The position numbers and the translations under genes were made by a program. Under the pieces are notes generated by a model. That model worked only from the letters and a program-made list of their open reading frames with translations, did no database searches and was not told the origin of the DNA. A stretch of 64,000 nucleotides of DNA from Betaproteobacteria bacterium (GTDB lineage Bacteria > Pseudomonadota > Gammaproteobacteria > Burkholderiales > SG8-39), in contig CANKAJ010000005.1 in assembly GCA_947479645.1 (NCBI GenBank), positions 1-64,000 on the forward strand. Reading direction: 5' to 3'. Of this stretch, positions 5,259 through 18,122 are shown in pieces. Numbering within the stretch: position 1 is the first letter of the stretch; each line of letters opens with the position of its first letter.

Positions 5259-6170
5259 CTATCTGGAGGCAAATTCGGATTTCCCCCCCAGGTAGTACTG
5301 AATCAACTTGATCGTCTCACGGGCGAGCCTAGTCGTTGGACGTTGCAATGGCACGGCGATGGTGAGTTGCCGGGTAAGCCGTGGTTGCGAAATGACATTC
5401 AGCTGAAGCTTGTTGGCAAAGCGGCTCTCCTGGACGACATGCACGGGCAGTGTCGTGCAGCCGTGACCCTGGCGCACCAGTTCAAGTATGAAATGCGCTC
5501 CTTCCATCTGCAGCACAACATTCAGCCTGGCGCCGGCTTCGGTTGCGGCCGCTTCGACCAGCGCGCGCATGGCATGCGGGAAGCTGGGCAGTATCAACGG
5601 ATATTTGCCCAGGTCGCGAGGCCGGACGATCCGTGATTTGGGCAGTGGCGGGTTGGCTGCCGCCGACACCAGGTAAATTGCCTCGTCTTCGAGGGGAATC
5701 ACTTCGATCAGTGAAGAGGGGCGCGGGTCGTACAGGATGCCGATGTCGATTCGGCCCGTGAGTATCCATTCATGAATCGACCAGCTCTTCGCCTCAATGA
5801 TCTCCAGCGAGGCGCGCGGAAATTTTTCGCGAAACGTGGTCACCAGTTTCGCGGTCAGCGCCTTGCCTGCTGATGGCGGGGCACCGATGATGACCTTGCC
5901 GATGGGGGATTGCTGACTGTCGTTCAATTCCTGGCGCGCTCTGGCGACCTGTTCCAGGATTCCCTTGGCGTGCGCGAAGAGCAGATTGCCCTCGTGGGTG
6001 AGGCCGATGCCGCGGCCATTGCGGTGCAAGAGCGTGTGGCGCAATTCGACTTCCAGCTGGCGCACCTGCTTGCTCAAGGCGGGTTGTGCCACCGACAAGG
6101 TTGCGGCGGCCTTTGTAAAGCTTCCCATTTCGGCAACCTGGACAAAGTATTCGAGCTGTTTCAGGTTCAT
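5259..6170 (-). CDS. LysR-family transcriptional regulator
   Basis: MNLKQLEYFVQVAEMGSFTKAAATLSVAQPALSKQVRQLEVELRHTLLHRNGRGIGLTHEG is a classic LysR HTH. Confidence 0.95.
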   Translation of the reverse strand: MNLKQLEYFVQVAEMGSFTKAAATLSVAQPALSKQVRQLEVELRHTLLHRNGRGIGLTHEGNLLFAHAKGILEQVARARQELNDSQQSPIGKVIIGAPPSAGKALTAKLVTTFREKFPRASLEIIEAKSWSIHEWILTGRIDIGILYDPRPSSLIEVIPLEDEAIYLVSAAANPPLPKSRIVRPRDLGKYPLILPSFPHAMRALVEAAATEAGARLNVVLQMEGAHFILELVRQGHGCTTLPVHVVQESRFANKLQLNVISQPRLTRQLTIAVPLQRPTTRLARETIKLIQYYLGGKSEFASR

Positions 6171-6290: not shown

Positions 6291-7508
6291 GTGAAGCAGC
6301 TAGGAAGCAGTTGTGCAGTCATCGGCATGGGACGGTCCATCTGCAAGCGCGGTGAACCGGAAAAGAAGACGCCATTGCAGCTGATGGTGGAAGCAGCAGG
6401 CCTGGCGATGAAGGAGGCCGGGATCAATCGCACCCAGGTCGGGGCATTGTTCACGGGGCGCATGCCGCGCACGTATTGTTCCCTGCAATACAACCAGACT
6501 GTCCTCAATGAATTGAAAATCGTACCCACTTTCTGCACTGAGGTGACGGCACACGGAGCAGGCGCACTGGGGACGATCGAACTGGCTATCCTGGCTTTGA
6601 ACAGCGGCATGATCGACTATGCGCTGTGCGTATGCGGTGAGGCGAGCCCGCTGTGGATCGAGATGGTCGAGGGTAGTGCCAACTGGGAAGCGGATCTTCA
6701 GTTCGAAGGTCCCTACGGCGCGACGACGCCATCGCTTTACGCCATGTGCGCACAGCGTTACATGCACGAATACGGTATTACGCCAGCCCAGCTGGCGCGC
6801 GTAGCCGTGGAGAATCGCAAGTGGGCGCTGGATCATCCGCATGCCGCCATGCGGCGCCGCGGGCCAATCACGGTTGACGATGTGTTGTCGTCGAAAATGA
6901 TTGCTTCACCCATGCGCATGCTCGATTGCGCGACGTGGTTTCCTGGTGGCATCGGATCCGCGGCCATCGTGACCCGGGCGGAACTGGCCAAGGGACGCGA
7001 GAAGGCGCCGTTCTACGTTGCCGGATTCGGGCAGTGTTCCACGCATGAGTGGATAGGCGAGCGCATGGGATTCTGGGGCGTGGATCCGGTCAAGGATGGG
7101 CCCAATCTCGTGCGTACGGGCGCCAGCGTTGCGGCGAAGCAGGCATACACCATGTCTGGCTTGTCTCCCAAGGACGTGGATCTGGTGCAGACATCGGCGC
7201 CATTCACATTTGCCAATGTCCTGATGCTGGAAGAACTGGGATTCTGCGGTGTCGGCGAAGGCGGTGCCTTTGTTGAATCGGGCGGCGTCGACTACGACGG
7301 CGGTCTGCCCTTTAACACCACGGGGGGGTATTTATCCTTTGGACAGTCCGGGCAGGGCCTGTATCTGCTGAAGGAAGTCGCCGACCAGATTGCCGGCCAG
7401 CCGGAAGGACGACCGGTACCGGATGCCAAGATTGGAATGGTACATGGTCACGGCGGGCCGAATGCCTGCCATTCGGTGATGTTGGTCAGTGGTGAGCAAC
7501 TGCAGTGA
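6291..7508 (+). CDS. Thiolase-like (SCP-x/lipid-transfer type) protein, no Cys in the nucleophile loop
   Basis: MKQLGSSCAVIGMGRS...LPFNTTGGYLSFGQSGQG; GTG start at 6291 chosen within ORF 5910-7508. Confidence 0.85.
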   Translation: MKQLGSSCAVIGMGRSICKRGEPEKKTPLQLMVEAAGLAMKEAGINRTQVGALFTGRMPRTYCSLQYNQTVLNELKIVPTFCTEVTAHGAGALGTIELAILALNSGMIDYALCVCGEASPLWIEMVEGSANWEADLQFEGPYGATTPSLYAMCAQRYMHEYGITPAQLARVAVENRKWALDHPHAAMRRRGPITVDDVLSSKMIASPMRMLDCATWFPGGIGSAAIVTRAELAKGREKAPFYVAGFGQCSTHEWIGERMGFWGVDPVKDGPNLVRTGASVAAKQAYTMSGLSPKDVDLVQTSAPFTFANVLMLEELGFCGVGEGGAFVESGGVDYDGGLPFNTTGGYLSFGQSGQGLYLLKEVADQIAGQPEGRPVPDAKIGMVHGHGGPNACHSVMLVSGEQLQ

Positions 7509-7557
7509 CAGATCTCATTGCGCAGATAAATTCGAATTCAGCAGGGAGGTAAGTGGT

Positions 7558-7998
7558 ATGGATTGGTCTCAAGGGCAGCCATTGCGTGTCGGGGACATGT
7601 TCCTCGGCCTGTATCAACCGTCACCTGAAACCACCGGGTTCTGGGAGGGAGTCAAGCGTCACGAGTTGCTGCTGAAGGTGTGCAACAGTTGCGGCAAGCT
7701 GCATCATCCGCGCAGGATACTGTGTTCTGGGTGTGGCGAAAGCGGCCTGGGCTGGACGCGGTCCAGTGGCAAAGGCAAGGTCTATGCGTTCAGTGAGATT
7801 CACCGTTCCGCCGGCGTGTTCAGCAAGTCCACCCCTTATGTGGTCGGCATCGCTGAATTGGAAGAGGGCGTTCATCTGTTCAGCCGGTTCATGGCGCGTA
7901 ACAATGCCGATGTGCAGATTGATCGTCCCGTGGATGTGGATTTCCAGGTGCTCGAGCAGGGCTTTCTGCTGCCCGTGTTCAAGCTGCGGGAGGAATAA
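7558..7998 (+). CDS. OB-fold/Zn-ribbon (DUF35) partner protein
   Basis: CNSCGKLHHPRRILCSGCG zinc ribbon plus GKGKVYAFSEIHR. Confidence 0.9.
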   Translation: MDWSQGQPLRVGDMFLGLYQPSPETTGFWEGVKRHELLLKVCNSCGKLHHPRRILCSGCGESGLGWTRSSGKGKVYAFSEIHRSAGVFSKSTPYVVGIAELEEGVHLFSRFMARNNADVQIDRPVDVDFQVLEQGFLLPVFKLREE

Positions 7999-8000
7999 GC

Positions 8001-9179
8001 ATGGCGCAAGGATCTTACGGGCCGCTGACCGGCATCACCGTGCTGGATGTGACCCAGTCGCTGGCGGGGCCGTTTGGCGGAATGCTGTTGGGCGATATCG
8101 GTGCGGATGTCATCAAGATCGAACTGCCCAAGGGCGGCGATGGCGCAAGGCGCTGGGGCCCGCCGTTTGCCGGCGACAGTGGCCCGACTTTTGTCGGGTT
8201 TAATCGCAACAAGCGCAGCGTGGCAATCGACTTGCATACGGTTGAGGGGCAATCCCAGTTCATACAGCTGGTCAAAAAAGCCGACGTGGTGCTGGAGAAC
8301 TTTCGCCCCGGTACCATGAAGAAATTCGGCGTTGACTATGAAACCCTGCGCAGCCACAACAAGAGCCTGATTTATTGCTCAATCTCGGGCTATGGCCAGA
8401 AGGGACCGTTTGCCAATCGCCCGGCCATGGACCTGATGATTCAGGCCATCAGCGGCATGATGTCGATTACCGGCGAACCGGAAGGACGGCCGGTCAAGGC
8501 AGCGGCGCCAATGGCAGATCTGTTTGGCGGATATACCGCCGCGTTCAGCATTCTGGCGGCGATTCGGGAGCGCGATCGTACCGGCGAAGGCCGCGTGATT
8601 GATGTTGCCATGCTCGATGCCATGATGACGCTGCTGGGCCAGACTGTGGTTGCCTACGCCATCAGCGGCGAGTCGCCGGCACGGCAGGGCAATGCGCATC
8701 AATTGATGGCGCCTTATCAGGCTTTCAGGACGGCGACCCGCGATATTGTCATTTCGCTGACCATCCAGAAACGCTGGGAATTGCTGTGCACGATCCCTGA
8801 ATTCGCGCCGTTGTTTGGCAAGGATATCTACGCCAACCAGGAATTGCGTAATGAACACAGGCTGGTGTTGTGTGCGGAAATGGACAAGATATTCTGCACG
8901 CGACCGGCCGAATACTGGCTGGCGGAACTGGAGCGGCTGGGGCTGCCTTCTGCGCCGGTGAATACCATTCCGGAAATCATGGCCGAAGAACATCTGGCAC
9001 TGCGAAACACCTTTATTGAAGTCGAATATCCGCCTGGCAGCGGAAGGCGGATCAAGACGCCGGGAATGCCCTGGCGCGATGTGGCGGCGGACCGACCGGT
9101 ACGCAATCCACCGACCATCGGACAGCATACCGAGGAAGTGTTTGCGCAGTTCGGAGTTAAGAAGACTACCGGCACCTAG
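8001..9179 (+). CDS. CaiB/BaiF family III CoA-transferase
   Basis: GITVLDVTQSLAGPFGGMLLGDIGADVIKIELP...NRNKRSVAIDL...ENFRPGTM; Asp in APMADLFGG. Confidence 0.95.
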   Translation: MAQGSYGPLTGITVLDVTQSLAGPFGGMLLGDIGADVIKIELPKGGDGARRWGPPFAGDSGPTFVGFNRNKRSVAIDLHTVEGQSQFIQLVKKADVVLENFRPGTMKKFGVDYETLRSHNKSLIYCSISGYGQKGPFANRPAMDLMIQAISGMMSITGEPEGRPVKAAAPMADLFGGYTAAFSILAAIRERDRTGEGRVIDVAMLDAMMTLLGQTVVAYAISGESPARQGNAHQLMAPYQAFRTATRDIVISLTIQKRWELLCTIPEFAPLFGKDIYANQELRNEHRLVLCAEMDKIFCTRPAEYWLAELERLGLPSAPVNTIPEIMAEEHLALRNTFIEVEYPPGSGRRIKTPGMPWRDVAADRPVRNPPTIGQHTEEVFAQFGVKKTTGT

Positions 9180-9266: not shown

Positions 9267-10268
9267 ATGAGAGAACTGACGGCAACAGCAGGTTCGAGTC
9301 GGTGTTGCAGTGCCTTCACCCGCTTGATGGCACTGGCTGCTGTGTTGGTCGCATCAACCGCGATGGCTCAATATCCTGATCGTCCGATTCGCGGCATTGT
9401 TCCGTTTGCTCCAGGTGGTGCAAACGATGTCATGGCTCGGGTGATATCGCCGCAGATTACCAAGTTGCTCGGCCAGCCTGTCATTATTGACAACCGTCCC
9501 GGTGCATTGGGGCATATCGGCATTGAAGCGACGGCCAAGTCCAAGCCGGATGGCTACACCATTCTCTTCAGTGCAACGGCATCCACGGTGCTGCCGGCGA
9601 TGTCGAAGGCCATGCGCTACGATCCGATCAAGGACATTCAACCGGTCGCCGAGATTGGCCAGGGCCCTTATGTTGTCGTGGTCAATCCGAAGGTGCCGGC
9701 CACGAACCTGCGTGAGCTCATCGAGTACGCCCGGAAAAACCCCGGCAAGCTCAATGGCGGTGCGGGTGGCGCGGCCGGGACGCGCCTGGCCATCGAGTTG
9801 ATGAAAATCCAGAACAACATTCAGCTTGAAATCATCATGTACAACGGCAATGGGCCCACCGCGACGGCATTGCTCAAGGGCGAGGTCGATTTTGCAACCA
9901 TGGATACGTCGGCTTTCGTAGGCTATCTGGCTTCAGGCCGAATCAAGGCGTTCGCGGTCGCTGGTGAAAAGCGGTTGCCATCGCTGCCCGATGTGCCGAC
10001 CACTGCGGAAGCCGGCTTTCCGGACTTCAGGGCGGGTGCGATTTTTGGTGTTTATGTTGCGGCAGGAACGCCTGCTCCCATCGTGCAGAAGCTCAACGAG
10101 ACTATCAACGCCATCATTGTCATTCCGGAAATAGTCGAGCAACTTCGAAAGCTCGGCTCGGAGCCCAATCCAAAGAGCGTCGAGGTATTTACCCAACTGA
10201 TCCGGCGGGAGATCCAGACGTGGAAGGACGTTGTAGCCAAGGCCAAGATTCCGCTGGATGATCCATGA
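9267..10268 (+). CDS. Bug/TctC family substrate-binding protein
   Basis: YPDRPIRGIVPFAPGGANDVMARVISPQ...SKPDGYTILFSATAS. Confidence 0.9.
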   Translation: MRELTATAGSSRCCSAFTRLMALAAVLVASTAMAQYPDRPIRGIVPFAPGGANDVMARVISPQITKLLGQPVIIDNRPGALGHIGIEATAKSKPDGYTILFSATASTVLPAMSKAMRYDPIKDIQPVAEIGQGPYVVVVNPKVPATNLRELIEYARKNPGKLNGGAGGAAGTRLAIELMKIQNNIQLEIIMYNGNGPTATALLKGEVDFATMDTSAFVGYLASGRIKAFAVAGEKRLPSLPDVPTTAEAGFPDFRAGAIFGVYVAAGTPAPIVQKLNETINAIIVIPEIVEQLRKLGSEPNPKSVEVFTQLIRREIQTWKDVVAKAKIPLDDP

Positions 10269-10331: not shown

Positions 10332-12563
10332 ATGGCGGGCAAGTGCGTGTTGGACGGCATTCGCGTTATTGATTTTGGCCAGTACATCGCAGGGCCAATG
10401 GCGGCAATGCTGCTCGCGGATCAGGGGGCTGATGTCATCCGCGTTGATCCGCCGGGGGGAGTGCGCTATGACACACCGGCCAATGCCACCTGGAATCGCG
10501 GCAAACGCAGTATCGTGCTGGACTTGAAGCAGGCAGGCGATGTCGATGTCGCGCGCCGCTTGATTGCCTCTGCGGACGTTGTCATTGAAAACTTCCGTCC
10601 TGGTGTCATGGACAGGCTGGGCCTGGGGCATGTGCAGTCGATGCAGGGTAATCCCAGACTGATTTATTGTTCCATTCCCGGTTTTGCAGCGGATGATCCG
10701 CGGGCCGGCATGCGCGCCTGGGAAGGCGTCATTGCAGCGTCCACTGCGACCTATCGCGCCAGCCCGGACACCGGCAAGGCGCAGCCTGTCTATACCGTGA
10801 TGCCGTTTTCGTCGGCCTACGGGGCATTTCTGTCGGCCGTCAGTATTACCGCATCACTGAATGCCCGCGAATTATCAGGTGTCGGGCAGCGCATTGAAGT
10901 GCCACTTTTTGACGCCACTTTCACGGCGCTGAGTAATCTCGGCCTGAAAGTTCACAATCAGCCAAAGCCGGCCAAGGAGTTCGACTGGTCGCGTCAATTG
11001 CCCACCAAAGATGGCCGTTGGGTGCGATATTTTTCCGGGAACAAGAAGTTCGAGGAATTCATCAAGGTTATCGGTATGGCTGCGTATCGTGATGCGGGGG
11101 CCAGCGCCGAGGAGTTGGGGCGGCGCTTTGACGAAATATTCCGCACGCGTACCGCAATGGAGTGGGAGGAGTTCTGCGCCAATCTCGGCACGGAGGGCGC
11201 GCGTTGCAATACCAGTGCGGAGTGGCTGCAGCATCCGCATGCCTTGGCATCCGGAATCATTGCCGATTTCACTGATCCTGAATTGGGCAACTTTCGCGGA
11301 CCTGGTATCAATGTCCGCTTGTCGCAAACACCTGGGAAGGTGCGCTCACCGCGGCCCAGGCTGGATGCGCATCACGACGAAATTCTCAAGGAACTGTCCA
11401 CGTTTCGTTCGGCGCCTGCGTCCGCGGCGGCGATGCCGGATCTCACTTCCTGCTTGAAGGGCATTCGGGTTCTTGATCTGTGCATCATTCTCGCAGGTCC
11501 CACATGTGGCCGTACGCTGGCCGAATTTGGCGCCGATGTCATCAAGATCGATAGCCCGCATCGCAATCCCGTGTCATCGCACAACGATATCAACCGCGGC
11601 AAGCGCAGCATCTTGCTGGATCTGAAAACTGCGGAAGGCATGCAGATATTGTGGCAACTCATCGATGGTGCGGATGTGATCCTGCAGAACTTCCGTATGG
11701 GGGTCGCCGATCAATTGGGAATAGGCTATGCAGCGGTGCGTGCCCGTCGTCCCGGGATTGTCTATTGCTCTCTCAATACCTTTGGTCAGCTCGGTCCGAA
11801 TGCGCAGCGCCCCGGACATGAGTCAATCGCGCAGGCCATGTCCGGCATGATGGTTCGATTCGGCAGTGCCAAACCGGCGCTGGCGCCGTTCCCGGCCAAT
11901 GATTATGGCACCGGGTTGATGGGATCCTACGCCGTGATGCTGGCGTTACTGCACAAGAAGCATACGGGCAGGGGGCAGCATGTGGACACGGCACTGGCCT
12001 ACACTGCCACCATGCTGCAATCAGGGCTGTTGCAGGATTACCCCGGGAAGAAATGGGATGAGCCGCATGGTCAGGAAGCGCTTGGCAGTGGCCCGTTGCA
12101 CCGGATGTACCAGGCCAGCGATGGCTGGCTGTTTCTTGCCGGGCGACGCGAAGATCTGGCGAGGCTTCCTGAACTCGCTGATGTGGCCGACAAGGAGGGT
12201 ATCAGTCTGGAACGGGCGATTGAAGAGCGCATCGCCGGGCGCACTGTTGATGCGTGGCTACCCATTCTGACCATGGCAGGATTCGGCGCGCAACGCGTTG
12301 TCACCGATATTGCCGTATTGATGGAAGACGCACTGGTGCGAGCGCGAGGATTGAGCATTACACGCGAACATGATGTCATCGGGCCTGTCACCACCACTGC
12401 GCCTGGCGTCAGGCTGTCGCGCACACCCGCCGTTGTCGGACGGCCCGCGCCCAAGCCCGGTGCCGATGCCGGCAGCATTCTTGAAGAGATCGGACTTCGC
12501 GATCAGTTGGATCGCCTTGTGAGTGAACGGGTTGTTGTCATGGATGGTATCGAGGCAGGCTAG
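10332..12563 (+). CDS. Two-domain (tandem-fused) CaiB/BaiF family III CoA-transferase
   Basis: Two complete N-terminal motifs: GIRVIDFGQYIAGPMAAMLLADQGADVIRVDPP and GIRVLDLCIILAGPTCGRTLAEFGADVIKIDSP; 743 aa. Confidence 0.9.
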   Translation: MAGKCVLDGIRVIDFGQYIAGPMAAMLLADQGADVIRVDPPGGVRYDTPANATWNRGKRSIVLDLKQAGDVDVARRLIASADVVIENFRPGVMDRLGLGHVQSMQGNPRLIYCSIPGFAADDPRAGMRAWEGVIAASTATYRASPDTGKAQPVYTVMPFSSAYGAFLSAVSITASLNARELSGVGQRIEVPLFDATFTALSNLGLKVHNQPKPAKEFDWSRQLPTKDGRWVRYFSGNKKFEEFIKVIGMAAYRDAGASAEELGRRFDEIFRTRTAMEWEEFCANLGTEGARCNTSAEWLQHPHALASGIIADFTDPELGNFRGPGINVRLSQTPGKVRSPRPRLDAHHDEILKELSTFRSAPASAAAMPDLTSCLKGIRVLDLCIILAGPTCGRTLAEFGADVIKIDSPHRNPVSSHNDINRGKRSILLDLKTAEGMQILWQLIDGADVILQNFRMGVADQLGIGYAAVRARRPGIVYCSLNTFGQLGPNAQRPGHESIAQAMSGMMVRFGSAKPALAPFPANDYGTGLMGSYAVMLALLHKKHTGRGQHVDTALAYTATMLQSGLLQDYPGKKWDEPHGQEALGSGPLHRMYQASDGWLFLAGRREDLARLPELADVADKEGISLERAIEERIAGRTVDAWLPILTMAGFGAQRVVTDIAVLMEDALVRARGLSITREHDVIGPVTTTAPGVRLSRTPAVVGRPAPKPGADAGSILEEIGLRDQLDRLVSERVVVMDGIEAG

Positions 12564-12591: not shown

Positions 12592-13791
12592 ATGGACCTG
12601 AGTTATACCGAAGAAGAAATTGCATTTCGTGACGAGGTGCGCGCTTTTTGCAAGGAGAACCTGCCGGAGCATATCCGCCAGAAGCAGATGTGCGGGCAGC
12701 GTTTGGGCAGGGAGGATGTGGTCACCTGGCAGCGCATACTCAACAAGAAAGGCTGGGTCGCGCCGTTGTGGCCGGTCGAAGCCGGCGGAACCGGCTGGGA
12801 TGCAGTGCGCTATTTCATTTTCAAGGAAGAGTGTTACAGGGCCTGGGCCCCGGATGTCCTCGCACAGAATATCCAGAATCTGGGGCCGGTCATCATTGCC
12901 TATGGCACGGATGAGCAGAAGAGTTTCTTTTTGCCCAAGCTGCTGAACCTGGATATCTGGATCTGCCAGGGCTTCTCGGAACCAGGATCGGGATCGGACC
13001 TGGCATCCCTGAAGACACGGGCAGAGCGCGAGGGCGACCATTATGTGGTGAATGGCCAGAAACTGTGGACCAGCGGCGCGCATAACGCGGACTGGATGTA
13101 TGCGCTGGTGCGCACTGATCCCAATGTCAAGCGCCAGCGTGGCATCACCTATCTGCTCATCGACATGAAGTCTCCCGGGATTACCGTACGCCCGGTCATC
13201 ACGCTGGATGGAAACCGGCATGTCAATGAAGTCTTCTTCGAAAATGTGCATGTGCCCGTCGGCAATCTCATTGGCGAAGAGAACAAGGCCTGGAGTTACG
13301 CCAAATATCTGCTCGGCAATGAACGTGTCGGCATTGCCCGTGTCGGGTTGTCCAAGGCCCGCGTGCAATTGGCCAAGGCCATGGCGGAAAAAGTGATGAT
13401 CGATGGCAAGCCGCTGTCTGAGAATCAGCAGTTTCGCGAAAAACTCGCCAGCGTGGAGGTTGAACTGAAAGCGCTGGAAATCACCAACATGATTGTGGTG
13501 GCCGGCATGGGCAAGCGTATGGATCAGGGCCAGGATCCCAGGACTTCGGTACTGAAAATGAAGGGCTCCGACTTGCAGCAGTCCACGACTGAAATCCTGA
13601 TGGAAGTGGCGGGGCCGCAGGCCATGGCGCGCCAGGTCGACGTGCTCGAGGGAAGAAACGAGCATCCCTCAGGCGAAGTCTGGCAGGCCACCTCGGCGCT
13701 CAATTACTACATCGCGCGGGCTGCAACCATTTATGGCGGCACCAGTGAGGTACAGCGCAATGTTGTAGCAAAGGGAATACTGGGCCTGTAG
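12592..13791 (+). CDS. Acyl-CoA dehydrogenase
   Basis: GFSEPGSGSDLASLKTRAEREGDHYVVNGQKLWTSGAHNADW...IYGGTSEVQRNVVAKGILGL. Confidence 0.95.
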   Translation: MDLSYTEEEIAFRDEVRAFCKENLPEHIRQKQMCGQRLGREDVVTWQRILNKKGWVAPLWPVEAGGTGWDAVRYFIFKEECYRAWAPDVLAQNIQNLGPVIIAYGTDEQKSFFLPKLLNLDIWICQGFSEPGSGSDLASLKTRAEREGDHYVVNGQKLWTSGAHNADWMYALVRTDPNVKRQRGITYLLIDMKSPGITVRPVITLDGNRHVNEVFFENVHVPVGNLIGEENKAWSYAKYLLGNERVGIARVGLSKARVQLAKAMAEKVMIDGKPLSENQQFREKLASVEVELKALEITNMIVVAGMGKRMDQGQDPRTSVLKMKGSDLQQSTTEILMEVAGPQAMARQVDVLEGRNEHPSGEVWQATSALNYYIARAATIYGGTSEVQRNVVAKGILGL

Positions 13792-14320: not shown

Positions 14321-15493
14321 TCAGCCTTGCGAACCGTAAATAATGGTGACCGCCTTGCCGGCGACGTCGGAGCAGTACTGCACATGCCGGCAATTGGCAA
14401 CCTGACGTTCGCCGCATTCACCGCGCAGTTGGCGCACCGCCTCGACCTGGTGATTCCAGCCCTGCATGTAACTCTCCGACAAATGACCTCCGCCGGTATT
14501 GACGGGCAGGGCGCCTTCAAGGGAAATGCCTTTCTCGGCCATGAATTTGGCGGCTTCGCCTTCTGCGCAATAGCCAAAACCCTCCAGTGCGAACGGAACA
14601 TGGCAACTGAAGCTGTCATAGACCTGTATGGCATCCATGTCTGAGGGGCCGAGTCCCGCCATGTTGAAGACCTGTGCCGCCGCCTTTTGCTGGGCAGGGA
14701 GGTAGAAGTGCACCAGGCGTGGTTCCAGGCTGGTGGCACCTTCGTTCAAGTCATAGCGGCCTATTCCCAGAATGGGCACAGGCTTCTTGGCCATTTTCTT
14801 TGCCCTGGAACTCTCGCTGATGATGAGGCATACCCCGCCGTCATTGATCAGGCAGTAATCCAGCAGGCGCAGTGGCTGGCATACATACGGCGCGGCGAGA
14901 TAATCTTCGATGCTGACCCGCTTGCGCATGATGGCATTGGGATTCAGGCTGGCCGCAAGTCGCTGCGCCATGGCCACAGCACCCAGGTCGCGTTCTGTCA
15001 TGCCATAGATTTCCTTGTAGCGCTGGAACATCACCGCATAGAGCGCTCCCTGCGAGGTCAGGCCCCAAGGGGAATGGTAGATGTAGGACAGGTGGTCACT
15101 GCCGCCGGATACGGTGCCCGAGCCGCCATACTGGACTTTGGAGGTGCGTTGGTCATATCCATAGACCAGTGCCACCACTTCCGCCATGCCGCTGTAGATG
15201 GCCATGCAGGCCTGCGCGACCGCCTGCACCGAGTCGGCCTGACCGCCCCAGCGGGTATTCAGACCGAGCACTTCTCCCATTCTTTCATAGGCCGTCTTTG
15301 GGCCAACGATCAGGCCGTCAATATCGTCGCGTTGCAGACCGGCATCGGCGAGTGCGCGCTGGAAGGCGGCAGCGCCCAGATCATAGGAGTCGCCCGATTC
15401 GAGCCCCTGTCTTGATCGCTCGTAATCCTTGGCCCAGTCGGTATGTCCCACACCGACGACGGAGGCCACGCCGCGCATTCCAGTTTCATTCAT
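14321..15493 (-). CDS. Thiolase-like (SCP-x/lipid-transfer type) protein, no Cys in the nucleophile loop
   Basis: VVGVGHTDWAKD...RWGGQADSVQAVAQACMAI...LPVNTGGGHLSESYMQGWNHQVEAVRQLRG. Confidence 0.9.
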   Translation of the reverse strand: MNETGMRGVASVVGVGHTDWAKDYERSRQGLESGDSYDLGAAAFQRALADAGLQRDDIDGLIVGPKTAYERMGEVLGLNTRWGGQADSVQAVAQACMAIYSGMAEVVALVYGYDQRTSKVQYGGSGTVSGGSDHLSYIYHSPWGLTSQGALYAVMFQRYKEIYGMTERDLGAVAMAQRLAASLNPNAIMRKRVSIEDYLAAPYVCQPLRLLDYCLINDGGVCLIISESSRAKKMAKKPVPILGIGRYDLNEGATSLEPRLVHFYLPAQQKAAAQVFNMAGLGPSDMDAIQVYDSFSCHVPFALEGFGYCAEGEAAKFMAEKGISLEGALPVNTGGGHLSESYMQGWNHQVEAVRQLRGECGERQVANCRHVQYCSDVAGKAVTIIYGSQG

Positions 15494-16860: not shown

Positions 16861-16919
16861 GAGGCAATTCAATTGAAGTCGTTAAATATCATGAAGTGTG
16901 CAGTATGCGAGGGCAATCG

Positions 16920-18122
16920 ATGAACCCGCGTGGCGCAGTTGCCATTGTTGGTGCCGGATCGCCCGGATTGTTCCGTGCCAGTCCGGATACGCCCATCAAT
17001 CTGGCGGAGCAGGCCGTATCGCGCGCGCTGGACGATGCCGGATTGAAGCGCAGTCAGATTGACGGATTGATCATACAAATCGGTTCACCGCGGGGCACCG
17101 ACTACGATCTTGCCGCCAGCATGCTCGGTTTGAATGTCCGGTTTGCTGCGCAGCCGTGGGCCCATGGCCGCTTCGGTGCCACCGTGCTCACGCACGCGGC
17201 AATGGCGCTCTCCTGGGGGCTGGCCGATTACATCCTGTGCTTTGCCGCCTATAACAACTCGAGTTTCGGCCGGCACGGATCCAAGGAGCGTCCGAGTTAT
17301 GGCGAGTCCTTGCGCGAAGGCGGCGGGCCCCACGCCGAAACGCCCCATGCAGGATTGACGGCCCCGGTGGCTGGTGCCGGCATGGCAGCGCAACGCTATT
17401 TCCACAAATACGGCATTAATCCGGGCAAACTCGCGGCGGTGCCGCTGGCATTTCGCCGTCATGCCATGCTCAATCCCGAGGCGGTGATGAGAAAACCACT
17501 GACGCGCGAGGATTATTTTGCTTCGCGCTATATCGTCGAGCCGCTACGCCTGTTTGACTGCTCTGTTCCGGTGGACGGCAGCGTGGCGTTTATCCTGACC
17601 ACGGCAGAGCGTGCTCGTGACTGCAAAAAGCCACCGATTCAGTTGCTCGGCGTTCAGGGTATTCATGCCGGGCCAAATGAGTTCATCTTCGGTCAGCCCG
17701 GACTGGGCGTGAATCAGTCCGACGTGTTCGATTACAAGCCGGCTGGTGCCGATGATCTGGTCTTTCGAATGGCCGGCGTCAAGCCGGCGGATATCGACCT
17801 CTTCACGACCTACGACGCGTTCTCGCCGATCGTGCTGTGGGCGCTTGAACGCTATGGTTATTGCAAACCGGGTGAAGCGGCCGACTGGATCCAGAATGGC
17901 CGAATTGAACTCGGCGGAGAATTGCCAGTGAATACCAACGGCGGCTTTCTGTCCGCCGGCCATTTCAACAGCTGGGGCGAAATACTGGAGATCGTGCGGC
18001 AACTTCGCGGCGAAGCCGGTGAACGCCAGGTTCGCAACGCCGAACTCGCCCAATGGGGCACGGTTGTCGGGGACTCCATCATATTTGGCCGGGATCGCAC
18101 CGGAGCAAAGGAATTGTCATGA
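16920..18122 (+). CDS. Thiolase-like protein, no Cys in the nucleophile loop
   Basis: MNPRGAVAIVGAGSPG...LPVNTNGGFLSAGHFNSWGEILEIVRQLRGEAGERQV. Confidence 0.87.
   Translation: MNPRGAVAIVGAGSPGLFRASPDTPINLAEQAVSRALDDAGLKRSQIDGLIIQIGSPRGTDYDLAASMLGLNVRFAAQPWAHGRFGATVLTHAAMALSWGLADYILCFAAYNNSSFGRHGSKERPSYGESLREGGGPHAETPHAGLTAPVAGAGMAAQRYFHKYGINPGKLAAVPLAFRRHAMLNPEAVMRKPLTREDYFASRYIVEPLRLFDCSVPVDGSVAFILTTAERARDCKKPPIQLLGVQGIHAGPNEFIFGQPGLGVNQSDVFDYKPAGADDLVFRMAGVKPADIDLFTTYDAFSPIVLWALERYGYCKPGEAADWIQNGRIELGGELPVNTNGGFLSAGHFNSWGEILEIVRQLRGEAGERQVRNAELAQWGTVVGDSIIFGRDRTGAKELS

Follow-up and report, generated by a model that had tools for sequence, protein, structure and literature searches.

The window, which is the whole 64 kb stretch of DNA that was analysed, encodes a thiolase-fold protein of 405 aa (THL1; 6291..7508, + strand) in which both the catalytic cysteine of thiolases and the catalytic tyrosine of the related aldolases have been lost. 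THL1 belongs to a single clade, is maintained by purifying selection and is encoded within a conserved gene cassette. With the chances for and against about evenly balanced, this clade, found in Beta- and Alphaproteobacteria and Haloarchaea, may represent a third kind of catalytic site for the thiolase fold, in which C-C cleavage (or decarboxylation) of CoA esters would proceed without Cys, Tyr or HDCF/YDxF motifs and with an invariant T-x-H-[GS]-[AG]-G / H-E-(x4)-R / G-Q set. To our knowledge, catalysis in this fold relies either on Cys pairs, as in thiolases, or on Tyr together with Tyr or Cys, as in Ltp2 and Sal. A conserved clade that lacks both sets and has fixed a new polar set is a clean and testable example of an active site being replaced while the fold is kept, and it calls for caution over the current annotations of such genes (acetyl-CoA acetyltransferase, lipid-transfer protein). 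As sequenced strains of Cupriavidus and Paracoccus carry clade members, genetic analysis should be feasible.

Fold and active-site columns of THL1

Translation of THL1 was assigned to the GTG at 6291, directly preceded by a GGAGGG ribosome site. The protein matched Thiolase_C_1 (PF22691; E 7e-35) and, weakly, Thiolase_N, and its nearest PDB entries by sequence were 4u4e, 9myr (Sal), 6ok1 (Ltp2), 7yvy and 6esq. An AlphaFold2 model (pLDDT 80.3, pTM 0.85), with loops of only moderate pLDDT and low values at 253-269, retrieved 4u4e and 6ok1 first and 9myr among the top six in a fold search, and gave TM values of 0.76-0.82 to 4u4e, 6ok1, 6esq and 9myr. Because Pfam, sequence and fold searches agree, the fold and the pairing with a DUF35 protein proposed in an earlier, sequence-only reading are correct.

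THL1 and its homologs were aligned (MAFFT) with Sal, Ltp2, 6esq, 7yvy and 4u4e. The register was confirmed by the positions of Ltp2 Tyr294, His296 and Tyr344 and of Sal Gly89, Tyr302, Cys304, Gln347 and Gln352, which match the numbering of PMC12329534, the source of the Ltp2 catalytic residues; the chain numbering of 9myr is offset by 24 residues from the published Sal numbering. The nucleophile-loop segment quoted in the sequence-only reading, CTEVTAHGAGALGTIELAILAL, is present in the open reading frame 6291-7508, and the loop equivalent runs E84-V-T86-A-H88-G89-A-G91 (6540..6563, +). It had been described as carrying His/Gly where CxSG is expected. The Cys column is indeed occupied by Gly (G89), shared with CtSal Gly89 and Ltp2 Gly83 in both MAFFT and profile-profile alignments, but the His is not the replacement, H88 being the residue at -1. 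As this loop is kept in six homologs of 52-85% identity, neither sequencing error nor chance accounts for it. None of the Cys residues of THL1 (8, 18, 63, 82, 113, 115, 153, 213, 249, 319 and 393) aligned with the nucleophile column, nor did any in the clade relatives (14/14). The HDCF second-site motif and the His of GHP are also absent from the alignment, with TSAPF and FGQSG in their places. The replacement of GHP by GQSGQ had been read correctly; it lies at residues 351-355, resembles FGQSGT of Sal and forms part of the segment GG-Y347-LSFG-Q352-SGQ (7323..7355, +), with Q352 in the column of CtSal Gln352 and Ltp2 Tyr344. In the C-terminal oxyanion loop, H385-G-H387-G-G-P390 (7443..7460, +), G389 falls in the column of CtSal Gly391 and H387 is specific to the closest relatives of THL1 (clade A).

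On these alignments, the conclusion that THL1 is not a thiolase is well supported. Family models do give such proteins the name acetyl-CoA acetyltransferase, but all NCBIfam thiolase scores for THL1 were far under cut-off and the nucleophile column is Gly throughout clade A. A true thiolase recruiting its Cys from elsewhere is therefore hardly credible, the only Cys residues invariant in clade A being C113, which lies in a strand, and C319, the common LGFC Cys that is also found in Ltp2.

The sequence-only reading had further proposed a retro-aldolase of the Ltp2 type. Its fold, DUF35 partner and lineage were borne out, but the catalytic residues were not; the loss of the aldolase motif YDHF/YDCY had been overlooked. 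In THL1 this motif is replaced by TSAPF (residues 301-305), the aldolase columns being S302 (Tyr), A303 (Asp), P304 (His/Cys) and F305 (S302-A-P304-F305; 7194..7205, +). Ltp2 Tyr294/His296/Tyr344 thus correspond to S302/P304/Q352, and Sal Tyr302/Cys304 to S302/P304. A gap-free HMM-HMM alignment of the clade against Tyr-bearing paralogs, which is independent of MAFFT, returned the identical register. As aligned, both the thiolase catalytic set and the known aldolase set are missing from THL1, and an Ltp2-type assignment on catalytic residues is not supported. The known retro-aldolase mechanism cannot operate with S302/P304/Q352 in the Tyr/His/Cys columns, and an aldolase would be possible only with different residues. 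A conventional retro-aldolase of the Ltp2/Sal kind, relying on the YDHF/YDCY Tyr, would be consistent with the shared fold and DUF35 partner and with Gly89 and Q352 being as in Sal. It is nevertheless very unlikely, since two alignment methods agree that Ser replaces this Tyr in clade A, and Ser, Ala, Thr or Asp elsewhere in the clade, and since the CtSal Y302F and C304 mutants were essentially dead (PMC12329534).

A clade-specific loop (7035..7100, +) carries H252-E253-W-I-G-E-R258 and, compared with Ltp2-, Sal- and 4u4e-type proteins, some 13 inserted residues. In the AlphaFold2 model, where pLDDT is low from 253, H252-E253 were placed on the loop between a strand ending near 250 and a helix starting at 278.

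Clade membership and constraint

The genome encodes at least 20 DUF35-type thiolase paralogs. Among 20 that were aligned, 19 lacked the Cys, whereas the 302 column held a Tyr or a His in 18, the only exceptions to the latter being THL1 and the paralog C13 (52% identity). By alignment, the Cys-less state is therefore the norm in this family. Five thiolase-like genes were present in the window itself, at least four of them with an adjoining DUF35 gene. The nucleophile loop of THL2 (14321-15493, -) seems to be several residues short, with a gap before GGQADSV, while YDSF is kept. THL3 (16911-18122) and a Natronosalvus paralog (L070 3247-4422) have in common an AHGR loop with His at -1, together with YDAF, and form another Cys-less subtype.

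In a tree of 66 proteins built with the motif columns removed, a single branch separated all Cys-bearing proteins from the others, requiring one Cys change, and THL1 still grouped in the Cys-less half with Ltp2, Sal and 4u4e, in keeping with the earlier claim that it is no thiolase. THL1 was placed in a clade of 15 proteins (support 100/99) that was recovered in 200/200 bootstrap trees, and the loss of Tyr/His required two changes, one for this clade and the other for a distant row, L060. No clade member has a Tyr at the aldolase Tyr column. Clade A comprises THL1 and homologs of 85% (G032), 75% (G382), 73% (L051), 71% (G225), 68% (G151) and 52% (C13) identity, all six of which share T-S-[AV]-P-F with THL1 at the YDHF/YDCY column; the wider clade has ISVNF, LAGNF, VTYMF or TDAGT there. 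This remainder consists of a Cupriavidus/Burkholderia/Paracoccus plasmid group together with G107 and G010 (38-40%), and of two Natronosalvus halobius genes, so that the 15 sequences span Burkholderiales, an alphaproteobacterium and a haloarchaeon. Clade members are rare, being carried by 5 of the 399 genomes of the order, and at close-relative thresholds the class- and phylum-wide genome samples contained one only in the window's own genome. In the literature, no Cys-less thiolase/DUF35 protein without the Tyr was found.

Two side observations arose from the homologs. Tandem thiolase-like gene pairs, possibly encoding heterodimers, were seen in an actinobacterial MAG (L055 6584-8902) and in two archaeal MAGs (L059 3044-5496 and L060 2769-5161), the second gene of L055 having YLPY for YDxF. 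Furthermore, a MAG labelled Bordetella parapertussis (L049) holds an 85% ortholog and appears to be the same contig as G032; as G032 is placed in the window's genus, that label is probably wrong.

Strong purifying selection on THL1 was evident from a pN/pS ratio of 0.15 in the comparison with G032 and of 0.23-0.32 in those with the other orthologs, these values being uncorrected and pS near saturation. Invariant positions were concentrated in the active-site loops, both in clade A (26/39 versus 119/366 in the rest of the protein, p=7e-5) and in the wider clade (11/39 versus 34/366, p=0.0015). All 15 members have T86, H88, G91, H252, E253, R258, G351 and Q352, and of these T86, H88, G91, R258 and Q352 occur in at most 5% of the remaining Cys-less proteins. 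Y347, H387 and P304 are additionally fixed in clade A, H387 not being kept outside it. His88 is also found in the Tyr-bearing paralogs THL3, C3, C165 and Natr_2; it may therefore serve another role and is no exclusive mark of Tyr loss. As selection is strong and the cassette is kept in every ortholog, THL1 is not a decayed gene but, as judged from the alignments, encodes a protein that is being maintained and whose pocket differs.

The DUF35 partner and neighbouring genes

The gene directly downstream of THL1 encodes a DUF35 partner of 146 aa (7558..7998, +), with zf-ChsH2 and OB_ChsH2_C matches that were both over cut-off, a match to ChsH2-type domains, and with a conserved N-terminal extension, FLGLYQPSPET. 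All four zinc-ribbon Cys noticed earlier were confirmed (C42-x2-C45-x10-C56-x2-C59; 7681..7734, +). It is followed by a class III (CaiB) CoA-transferase (8001..9179, +), whose catalytic Asp motif reads AMDLMIQA. The THL-DUF35-CaiB cassette was observed in the window and in five of five clade-A ortholog loci, and its CaiB genes are orthologs (tree support 100, 60-72% identity), which establishes the neighbouring CoA-transferase, to which the sequence-only reading had drawn attention, as a conserved partner in six of six clade-A loci. Further downstream lie genes for a tripartite tricarboxylate transporter (TTT) substrate-binding protein of the Bug type (9267..10268, +; 75% to the G032 ortholog), a fused double CaiB-type protein (10332..12563, +) and an acyl-CoA dehydrogenase (ACDH; 12592..13791, +; 76% to G032), all three of which are kept in G032 besides the cassette. 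Both halves of the fused protein carry Glu (RAWEGV, PGHESI) at the position of the Asp of the active CaiB neighbours, and a fused double CaiB with this Glu is kept both in G032 (L041) and next to the C13 paralog (L039). A divergent LysR-type regulator, assigned by sequence, lies on the other side of THL1 (5259..6170, -); none was found beside the other THL1 orthologs.

Several assignments from context were considered and rejected. A benzylsuccinate-like pathway was prompted by the fused CaiB pair, the ACDH and the thiolase/DUF35 genes occurring together, but BbsA and BbsB models scored far under cut-off and Glu takes the place of Asp in each half of the fused CaiB. The clade-A cassette contains no hydratase, and the only candidates for a dedicated one in the window were crotonase-like ORFs far downstream that are not conserved alongside the cassette. 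Nor could a specific substrate be named, as the TTT-Bug protein and the CoA-transferases suggest carboxylic acids without fixing the compound; the window contains more than a dozen Bug/TTT substrate-binding proteins.

Outside clade A, the plasmid group (two Cupriavidus, one Burkholderia and one Paracoccus) has the order ACDH-MaoC-THL-DUF35-(Bug or CaiB)-CoA-transferase, G107 has MaoC-ACDH-ACDH-THL-DUF35, and Natronosalvus has a THL-DUF35-CaiB run. The CaiB neighbours of Natronosalvus and the plasmid group are not orthologous to that of clade A. A CoA-transferase as the ancestral partner of the whole clade was therefore rejected, and recruitment of a CoA-transferase seems to have occurred on more than one occasion. 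The same finding makes a dedicated scaffold pairing unlikely, and it bears on the possibility that THL1 is a catalytically silent subunit which binds CoA esters or scaffolds the DUF35 protein and the CoA-transferase. Such a role would fit the loss of both known catalytic sets, the constancy of the DUF35 and CoA-transferase genes as neighbours, and the scaffold function known for DUF35 in thiolase/HMGCS and PhlABC complexes (PMC12329534). It is, however, unlikely, since few parts of the protein are as conserved as its active-site loops and new polar residues have become fixed in bacteria and an archaeon alike.

Candidate reaction and known systems

The favoured reading, held tentatively and with slightly less than an even chance of being right, is that THL1 and its DUF35 partner constitute a rewired retro-aldol-type lyase, possibly with a His88-based site. 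It is suggested by the phylogeny and by the gene order in relatives, as the plasmid-group and G107 operons resemble the igr-type ChsE1/E2-ChsH1/H2-Ltp2 gene set, which carries out a hydration followed by a retro-aldol step (PMC12502768; PMC11321319). The two proteins would most probably assemble into an Ltp2/Sal-type alpha2-beta2 complex, acting on a CoA thioester made by the adjoining CaiB CoA-transferase from a carboxylic acid that may be imported by the Bug/TTT system, and the predicted reaction is retro-aldol-type cleavage of a 3-hydroxyacyl-CoA with a rebuilt catalytic set. In Sal, where modelling puts the beta-hydroxyl at the Gly89 amide, Tyr302 acts as its proton acceptor and Cys304 as the proton donor to the enolate, with an oxyanion hole made up of Gly391 and Gln161 (PMC12329534). 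The alignment indicates that THL1 retains the equivalents of Gly89 and Gly391 as well as Gln352, while base and acid are gone. The Gly89 backbone would bind the beta-hydroxyl, as in Sal, and the Gly389 loop would hold the enolate, which Gln352 and the H252-E253 loop may shape or protonate. The most straightforward replacement for the lost Tyr as base would be His88, which is invariant and adjoins Gly89. As the clade-A cassette holds no hydratase, one would have to be supplied from elsewhere for the retro-aldol reading. MaoC hydratases usually have Asp at the motif position. The MaoC-like protein beside the Cys-less THL of the plasmid group (L068 7457-7972, L069 and L071) has Asn there instead (TGNWIEIH), which leaves the hydratase argument uncertain too.

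It is also conceivable, although rather unlikely, that the complex is an active enzyme with different enolate chemistry, in which H88 together with H252/E253 and, in clade A, H387 would serve either to decarboxylate a beta-keto or malonyl-type CoA ester or to bring about hydrolytic (retro-Claisen) cleavage. In KAS-type decarboxylases, which have a related fold, His residues perform decarboxylation chemistry, and clade A adds two His (H88 and H387) on loops lining the thiolase active site. This chemistry would require only the CoA-transferase of the clade-A cassette and no hydratase, and slow decarboxylation of malonyl-CoA was described for TbSLP (PMC12329534). H387, however, is not kept in the wider clade, and the MaoC and ACDH genes beside the relatives fit beta-oxidation-like steps better.

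Among known systems, the thiolase fold is also combined with DUF35 in BbsAB (benzoylsuccinyl-CoA thiolase), where BbsEF is likewise a CaiB-type CoA-transferase pair, and in the archaeal thiolase/DUF35/HMGCS complex. The BbsA/BbsB models score far under cut-off on the THL1 pair, and the archaeal thiolase, unlike THL1, has the catalytic Cys in the alignment, as the sequence-only reading had stated. The best match of THL1, both by sequence (E 1e-45) and by fold, is 4U4E, a putative Sphaerobacter thermophilus thiolase that is likewise Cys-less but keeps YDSF and the HP of GHP and lacks the insertion; no literature report of its activity was found. Ltp2-ChsH2(DUF35) (6OK1; 27% identity in the fold search) shares with THL1 the fold, a C4 zinc-ribbon DUF35 partner and Gly at the Cys column. 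It differs in having Tyr294/His296/Tyr344 for Ser302/Pro304/Gln352, in lacking the THEW loop and in a DUF35 protein that is fused to a MaoC domain, whereas that of THL1 stands alone with a CoA-transferase as its conserved neighbour. The bile acid aldolase Sal-Shy(DUF35) (9MYR) resembles THL1 in Gly89, Gln352, the FGQSG segment, Tyr165 (Y150 in THL1) and the oxyanion Gly391 (G389), but its Tyr302/Cys304 and Gln347 are replaced by Ser/Pro and Tyr347, and its partner Shy is a MaoC-fused C3H1 DUF35 protein in contrast to the unfused C4 partner of THL1. Within the clade, the C13 paralog (52%) and the Cupriavidus, Burkholderia, Paracoccus and Natronosalvus homologs (38-40%) like THL1 have neither Cys nor Tyr and carry T-x-H-[GS]-[AG]-G, the THE loop and GQ, the plasmid-group homologs differing from THL1 in having MaoC and ACDH as neighbours.
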